Below are positions 20,240 to 53,456 of a stretch of 64,000 nt of DNA, one piece after another. The notes beneath the pieces were generated by a model that ran no database searches, was not told the DNA's origin, and worked only from the letters and a program-made list of their open reading frames with translations. Positions within the stretch are counted from its first letter, which is position 1, and each line of letters starts with the position of its first letter. A program made the translations under genes and the position numbers. Origin of the DNA: Bifidobacterium breve (GTDB lineage: Bacteria > Actinomycetota > Acidimicrobiia > Acidimicrobiales > Acidimicrobilacustridaceae). Where the stretch lies: NCBI GenBank assembly GCA_945860545.1, contig CAMAQM010000005.1, positions 31,447 to 95,446 of the forward strand. The letters run 5' to 3'.

Positions 20240-20643
20240 TGCCGCCCACCTGGCATGAGAAGCTGAACCGCCCTCAGGACCCGAAACGGAAGCGGCTCGA
20301 CAAGGCCTTCGCCGGCATTCCTGCCGGCGAGATGCTCTACATCTCGACGCCGCGTGAGATCGACGGCCTCATCGGCACGATTCCCGAAGGGGAGACACTC
20401 GACGTTCACGAGTTGCGTCGACGACTGGCCGAGGCCAACGACGCCGATGCCACCTGCCCGACAACGACGGCCATCTTCCTCCGGATCGTGGCGGAGGCAG
20501 CACTCGACGAGATCGCAGATGGAGCCGACTGGGCCGACGTCACGCCCTTCTGGCGCGTCATCGACCCCGACGGGCCGATCGCAGACCGGCTCTCATGCGG
20601 ACGCGAGACGGTGCGGGACCTCCGGCTCCAGGAGGCCGGCTGA
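20236..20643 (+). CDS. MGMT-family-like protein
   Basis: ISTPREIDGLIGTIPEGETLDVHELRRRLAEANDADATCPTTTAIFLRIVAEAALDE...VTPFWRVI resembles the MGMT-like DNA-binding fold family; no PCHR active site seen. Confidence 0.6.
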   Translation: MMPPTWHEKLNRPQDPKRKRLDKAFAGIPAGEMLYISTPREIDGLIGTIPEGETLDVHELRRRLAEANDADATCPTTTAIFLRIVAEAALDEIADGADWADVTPFWRVIDPDGPIADRLSCGRETVRDLRLQEAG

Positions 20644-25129: not shown

Positions 25130-25245
25130 CCCGCTCCAACCTCCCGCCCTGACGCTACCAGCGACAAGCCGGGACCGGTCCCGCGCCCCGATCCTCGTGG
25201 GGAGGGTCGGCCCGCTGGTTTCAACGGAGCGCCTCCTCGTGGCTA

Positions 25246-25266
25246 TAATAGGAATGATTCCCATTA
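25246..25266. promoter_or_regulatory. Zur/Fur-type palindromic operator over a -10 element
   Basis: TAATAGGAATGATTCCCATTA, 9 of 10 arm positions complementary; TATAAT at 25244-25249 overlaps it; near-copy at 53436-53456. Confidence 0.7.
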
Positions 25267-25301: not shown

Positions 25302-25478
25302 ATGTCCACATCAACCACCCGTCGCATCGTTGCCGCCACCGTGGCTGCCCTGATGGCCCTCGGCCTCGCAGCAGGGACGTCGACCGCCGCAGAGGACCAT
25401 GACCACGACCACGACCACGGCCACGATCACGATCACGACCACCGTGCGACCAACACCTCGCCGACCTACACCGGTTGA
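25302..25478 (+). CDS. small secreted His/Asp-rich peptide (58 aa), putative zinc-binding
   Basis: MSTSTTRRIVAATVAALMALGLAAGTSTAAEDHDHDHDHGHDHDHDHRATNTSPTYTG; AGGAG SD 5 nt upstream; absent from the supplied ORF track (too short). Confidence 0.8.
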   Translation: MSTSTTRRIVAATVAALMALGLAAGTSTAAEDHDHDHDHGHDHDHDHRATNTSPTYTG

Positions 25479-52793: not shown

Positions 52794-53009
52794 CTAGGCG
52801 CGGGCGAGTTGGGCTGCGGCCTCGTACAAGGTGTCAGGCACCACCGCTCCGGGGGTCAACGCCGTGCGACGACGTGGGTCCACCACCACCTCGCCGACGC
52901 CATGGGTGCGGATGCGCACCGATCCATCGATCTGCAAGGTGAGTGTGTGCGTGACCCGTCCCGTGCAATCGAAGACCTCAACGGACTCAAGGTACTGATC
53001 GAGTTCCAC
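52794..53009 (-). CDS. hypothetical 71-aa protein downstream of rpmG
   Basis: VELDQYLESVEVFDCTGRVTHTLTLQIDGSVRIRTHGVGEVVVDPRRRTALTPGAVVPDTLYEAAAQLARA; 4-nt gap to rpmG stop. Confidence 0.7.
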   Translation of the reverse strand: MELDQYLESVEVFDCTGRVTHTLTLQIDGSVRIRTHGVGEVVVDPRRRTALTPGAVVPDTLYEAAAQLARA

Positions 53010-53013
53010 AGCC

Positions 53014-53184
53014 TCAACGGTCCTCGCGGAACAGCACGTGGCGGCGAACTTTCGGGTCGTACTTCATGAGCTCGAGACGCTCACGGGTGGTGATCTTGTT
53101 CTTGCGGGTGTAATAGGTGAAGCCGGTGCCTGCGGTGCTCCGCAGCTTGACCAGCACCCGGCGATCCCGTGACTTGCCCGCCAT
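53014..53184 (-). CDS. rpmG: ribosomal protein L33, Cys-free type (not in supplied ORF track)
   Basis: [56 protein letters not shown]; no CxxC. Confidence 0.93.
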
Positions 53185-53420
53185 CAGATCCGATGCCCCT
53201 GCGCTCGGATGCGGGCGACGACCGACTCGATGCCGTCACGATCGATGGTCTTGATGGCCCTCGTTGACAGCGTCAACCTCACCCAGCGCCGCTCACTCGG
53301 CAGGTAGTAGCGCTTGCGCTGGATGTTTGGGTTCCAGCGACGATTGGTGCGCCGATGCGAGTGGGACACGGACTTCCCGAACGATGGTTTGGTGCCCAGC
53401 AACTGACAGACCCGTGACAT
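53184..53420 (-). CDS. rpmB: ribosomal protein L28, no CxxC motifs
   Basis: [74 protein letters not shown] 6 nt before ATG. Confidence 0.95.
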
Positions 53421-53435
53421 GAAGCCAGAGTAGCA

Positions 53436-53456
53436 AAATAGGAACGATTCCCAAAC
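53436..53456. promoter_or_regulatory. Zur/Fur-type operator in the rpmB promoter
   Basis: AAATAGGAACGATTCCCAAAC; core ATAGGAAYGATTCCCA shared with 25246-25266; immediately upstream of -10 TACTCT (53427-53432, minus). Confidence 0.7.

Follow-up and report, generated by a model that had tools for sequence, protein, structure and literature searches.

The rpmB unit and its operator

On the minus strand of the window, as we call the whole 64,000-nucleotide stretch of DNA that was analysed, lies a unit of three genes headed by rpmB (53184..53420), which encodes a C-minus ribosomal protein L28 of 78 aa (PF00830, E=4.6e-27; TIGR00009). Its stop is overlapped by rpmG (53014..53184), the gene for a C-minus ribosomal protein L33 of 56 aa (PF00471, E=2.9e-16), and the two are followed by a gene with a GTG start (52794..53009) that had been missed in the earlier note on this DNA and whose 71-aa product carries the motif DCxGx3HxLxLx2DG of an unnamed family. 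Ahead of rpmB the 21-bp box AAATAGGAACGATTCCCAAAC was located in the window letters at 53436-53456. The palindrome within it, TAGGAAC-G-ATTCCCA (53439..53453, reading TGGGAATCGTTCCTA in the rpmB direction), has the 7-1-7 layout of actinobacterial Zur operators and is predicted to be one. A sister box, TAATAGGAATGATTCCCATTA, was located at 25246-25266; its 7-1-7 core TAGGAATGATTCCCA (25249..25263) reads TAGGAAT-G-ATTCCCA, it overlaps a perfect TATAAT at 25244-25249, and it is followed on the plus strand by a gene for an exported His/Asp-rich peptide of 58 aa (25302..25478). Both boxes are inverted repeats of the 7-1-7 (or 10-1-10) kind with an AAYNRTT centre in a promoter region, and they have the core ATAGGAAYGATTCCCA in common, with zero mismatches at either. 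It had been claimed before that the operator at rpmB is a second copy of the one at 25246-25266 and that no further unit in the window shows it; both statements were borne out, since the window holds no strong match besides these two.

Could the shared sequence be a chance repeat? Its near-exact copies in the genome do number only two: in a scan of the 2.1 Mb draft (G000, incomplete at 89.6%) with patterns that allowed mismatches, nothing apart from these boxes matched with fewer than two mismatches. At up to three mismatches, however, 0.15 matches would be expected by chance in the window against four observed; these include a second reading of the same palindrome, on the opposite strand, and a match with three mismatches. 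A weight matrix trained independently, on the znuA/COG0523/zur-type sites of relatives only, places the 53436 and 25246 boxes (25.8 and 22.8) far above the shuffled-sequence maxima of 8.4-10.2, a range that includes the third-best window match (9.3). Together with the conservation of site contexts across the order, these results refute the chance reading, to which we assign practically no weight. Weak pattern matches elsewhere in the genome (contigs C2, C4, C6, C17 and C34, and window position 20371) scored 1.5-5.7 and were treated as chance.

The layout of the rpmB promoter offers a further view of the operator. A likely -10 element, TACTCT, lies on the minus strand at 53427..53432, 6 nt before the rpmB ATG at 53420, just as had been predicted, so that the order in the rpmB direction is operator, TACTCT, 6 nt and ATG; a generic sigma-70 scan found no promoter. 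In the rpmB promoters of two relatives, G042 and an Ilumatobacter MAG, the operator stands at the same distance, and the form TAnnnT is kept at the same spot (TAGCCT and TACGGT, respectively) with a gap to the ATG of 6 nt in the former and 7 nt in the latter. This fixed geometry in three genomes suggests that the rpmB transcript would be leaderless and that Zur would sit over the -35/spacer region. In C. glutamicum the transcripts of Zur targets are leaderless, and the boxes cover the core promoter (PMC2823685).

Spare copies of L28 and L33

The earlier note had described the L28 and L33 of the unit as free of cysteine, which is accurate for L33 and for the absence of CxxC pairs in both proteins, but not for L28 as a whole, which has a single Cys (C5). 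It had also proposed a search for CxxC-containing paralogues, and these are present: a zinc-ribbon L28 with the pairs CEVC and CTSC is encoded on contig C43, and a Cys-bearing L33 (CTEC, YC) on contig C40. Both L28 and L33 of the rpmB unit have thus lost the CxxC pairs while the genome also encodes a zinc-ribbon paralogue of each, the combination that defines C-minus proteins here. The genome keeps its CxxC L28 and Cys-bearing L33, and the C-minus copies are therefore spare. The matrix scan found no operator site near either of the two paralogues. As a side observation, the zinc-type L33 on C40 (L142) has only three Cys (CTEC, YCRWE) where four are usual.

Operators at C-minus rpmB genes recur in relatives, though unevenly. 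In G026, G042 and the Ilumatobacter MAG the operator occupies the same position as in our genome, and the operator-bearing C-minus rpmB units of G335 and G200 include COG0523. A site in G168 (a genome of 4,830,181 bp) precedes genes for L33, C-minus L31 and the small protein; the C-minus rpmB of G242 has a weak operator only, and those of Nocardia and Rhodococcus carry classical Zur-like sites, such as CGAAAATGATTGTCA. Of the remaining C-minus rpmB genes scanned in the order, the majority show no operator, so that the presence of a C-minus L28 does not by itself imply Zur control.

This last observation gives some room to the idea that the box is real but does little, the C-minus L28 and L33 being an effectively constitutive, horizontally acquired housekeeping set, and it is in keeping with that idea that a search of two genomes of the same genus found no C-minus L28 of comparable closeness. 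A housekeeping role is, however, hard to reconcile with copies that are spare to a retained CxxC L28 and Cys-bearing L33, and with an operator, -10 and ATG geometry conserved in three lineages; we consider this explanation very improbable. The 53439 site is, with high probability, the operator of a Zur-repressed promoter for the rpmB/rpmG/small-protein unit.

A probable zinc regulon and its candidate regulator

The operator motif recurs at zinc-uptake genes, weakly in the own genome and repeatedly in relatives. The single ZnuA gene of the genome, on another contig, has a third, sequence-divergent site, TGATAGTCATTCCTA, 59 nt before its ATG; its score of 14.2 is expected about twice by chance in 2.1 Mb, so the argument for this site is its position and not its score. 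With it the regulon comprises at least three loci, one more than the two-locus regulon that had been proposed. By matrix scan no operator site was found at the own zur gene, and a zinc-type COG0523 GTPase was not found in the own genome, where the two PF02492 matches are both weak.

A search of 249 genomes of the order with the consensus TRRGAAYNATTCYYA returned matches in 62, compared with about 19 for a reversed control pattern. Among the 89 distinct sites listed from the fetched loci, 46 have the start of a zinc gene or of the small-protein gene within 400 bp, counting ZnuA, ZnuB/C, COG0523 GTPase, zur, ZIP, AztD and the small protein. The site lies between znuA and a divergent Fur-family gene in G071 and G084. 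A lipoprotein gene of G042 (L254:3877-5337) stands directly behind a Zur-type site, and the C-terminal part of its product, preceded by a long HDHD-rich N-terminal tract, matches AztD (E=4e-37), a zinc chaperone. The sites that the earlier note had called for at zinc genes have therefore been located, in relatives before znuA, COG0523, ZIP, AztD and zur, and in the own genome before znuA; of the outcomes it had named as contrary (sites in front of genes for iron or manganese, sites scattered at random, just one L28/L33 set) none appeared, save for four FecCD-type permeases. Its Zur interpretation was essentially correct but did not reach far enough. Of the four FecCD-type permease genes (L064, L066, L067 and L114), all preceded by Zur-type sites, two diverge from a COG0523 gene; the permeases might import a zinc chelate.

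Which protein would bind these boxes? The genome has two Fur-family genes, on contigs C4 (C4:13226) and C25. The C4 protein is 43-45% identical to the Fur-family proteins encoded divergently from znuA (L063, L084), whereas its C25 paralogue reaches only 23-33% identity to them, over shorter stretches. C4 is the orthologue of the regulators that diverge from znuA behind the 53439-type operator, and it is the likely regulator of the boxes, judging from these sequence comparisons. It has the Fur fold (PF01475) with both structural CxxC pairs (LICAGC, GWCATC), and its Cys total is four, all of structural type: in an alignment with M. tuberculosis Zur (FurB) the regulatory-site Cys is absent, as it is from the znuA-divergent orthologues L063 and L084, and a His cluster is present in C4. 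On sequence alone, the match of C4 is marginally closer to PerR and Fur structures than to those of Zur.

The box might, alternatively, be the target of a different member of the Fur family (iron Fur, manganese Mur or PerR) that controls the C-minus genes. Boxes of the Fur family all resemble a 7-1-7 repeat, a ZnuA-type binding protein may be a manganese protein, FecCD-type permeases stand behind four such sites, and the second Fur-family gene, C25, lies beside rubrerythrin. Yet no site scoring above 10 was found near the gene for the C25 protein, which is the one most like PerR, two of the four FecCD genes are themselves divergent from a COG0523 gene, and the partner set of COG0523, AztD, ZIP, zur and C-minus ribosomal proteins points to zinc. 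The iron-Fur reading was rejected on the company kept by the target genes, and regulation by any of these other proteins seems to us unlikely.

Under Zur control, a Zur dimer, most likely of C4:13226, would occupy the 7-1-7 palindrome over the -35/spacer region when zinc is sufficient, blocking RNA polymerase. Once zinc became deficient, the repressor would leave the DNA and the C-minus unit would be switched on; its zinc-free L28 and L33 would take the place of the zinc-ribbon versions made from other loci, and ribosomal zinc would be spared or freed. ZnuA and the exported His/Asp peptide, switched on in the same deficiency, would gather zinc outside. The peptide is a plausible exported or extracellular zinc binder, and would be linked to the rpmB unit through regulation. 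No true homologue of it was found, its only matches being compositional ones to the ZrgA, ZnuA loop and UreE profiles, and a search of the literature for small, His-rich targets of Zur returned nothing relevant. The functional link between ribosomal zinc mobilisation and this peptide that had been drawn in the earlier note is less secure than the rest, the peptide being without a demonstrated homologue.

Relation to known Zur systems and a family of small proteins

In this uncultured actinobacterium the 53436 site very probably serves as a switch through which the zinc-sensing repressor Zur acts. Control of spare zinc-free ribosomal proteins by Zur is a known strategy, found here in a little-studied lineage, and the rpmB/rpmG unit would join the Zur-controlled operons for alternative ribosomal proteins already known; in the open literature that was searched we found no Zur study of this order. 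The mycobacterial representative is the altRP operon rpmB2-rpmG1-rpsN2-rpsR2 under Zur/FurB (PMC5912738, PMC7174638), and Zur sites are described at rpmB and CobW of M. smegmatis (PMC7174638). The present unit resembles the altRP operon in its adjoining C-minus L28 and L33 genes behind a 7-1-7 Zur-type site, in the zinc-ribbon paralogues elsewhere and in the COG0523 genes of the relatives' regulon. It differs in lacking S14 and S18 genes, in having GG/CC instead of AA/TT in the half-sites, in the small unnamed protein encoded by its third gene and in its presumably leaderless promoter.

The Zur regulon of S. coelicolor includes znuABC, rpmB2, rpmG2, rpmE2 and others (PMC6103462, PMC2823685), with a 7-1-7 box, TGAAAATGATTTTCA (PMC2823685). 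The 7-1-7 symmetry, the AAYNATT centre and the choice of znuA and C-minus ribosomal genes as targets are common to both systems, whereas the half-site here is TRRGAAY and the candidate regulator, as aligned to M. tuberculosis Zur, is without the regulatory Cys that marks the actinobacterial Zur site. The C. glutamicum box, TAATGATAACGGTTATCATTT, is of the 10-1-10 form (PMC2823685); this 21-bp form lines up with the sister site, and boxes over the core promoter and leaderless starts, the latter two predicted here, are further likenesses. The inner half-site differs, however, and the verified targets named in the C. glutamicum report are transporter, COG0523 and surface-protein genes, not ribosomal ones.

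These data extend the strategy of Zur and alternative ribosomal proteins to an order of mostly uncultured actinobacteria, in whose genomes zinc regulons become predictable from a readable consensus. They also bring to light a family of small proteins associated with zinc genes, to which neither Pfam nor NCBIfam gives a name. The 71-aa protein has no relative by sequence in Pfam, NCBIfam or PDB. Of 397 genomes of the order, 16 encode members of its family, 17 copies in all, with homologues at L272-L284, L252, L253, L250 and L128, and in a 398-genome sample of the phylum it occurs only in members of the order. Each copy that was examined either has znuABC, zur, COG0523 or C-minus ribosomal genes in its neighbourhood or comes immediately after a Zur-type site. 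In an alignment of 18 copies, neither the Cys of DCxG nor the Gly that comes after it varies, and 16 copies retain the His. An AlphaFold2 model of the protein (mean pLDDT 85) has four strands and a C-terminal helix, for which Foldseek returned no convincing fold match or solved look-alike (best E 0.18).

The family is apparently undescribed. We lean towards regarding the protein as the founder of a zinc-limitation family so far confined to the order and encoded only in zinc-regulon units, which may bind zinc or help in the switch to C-minus ribosomes, and which, together with the His/Asp peptide, would add two new kinds of small protein to Zur regulons. In G242 (L252:13360-14628) an oxidoreductase-like gene lies between a Zur-type site and the small gene plus COG0523.
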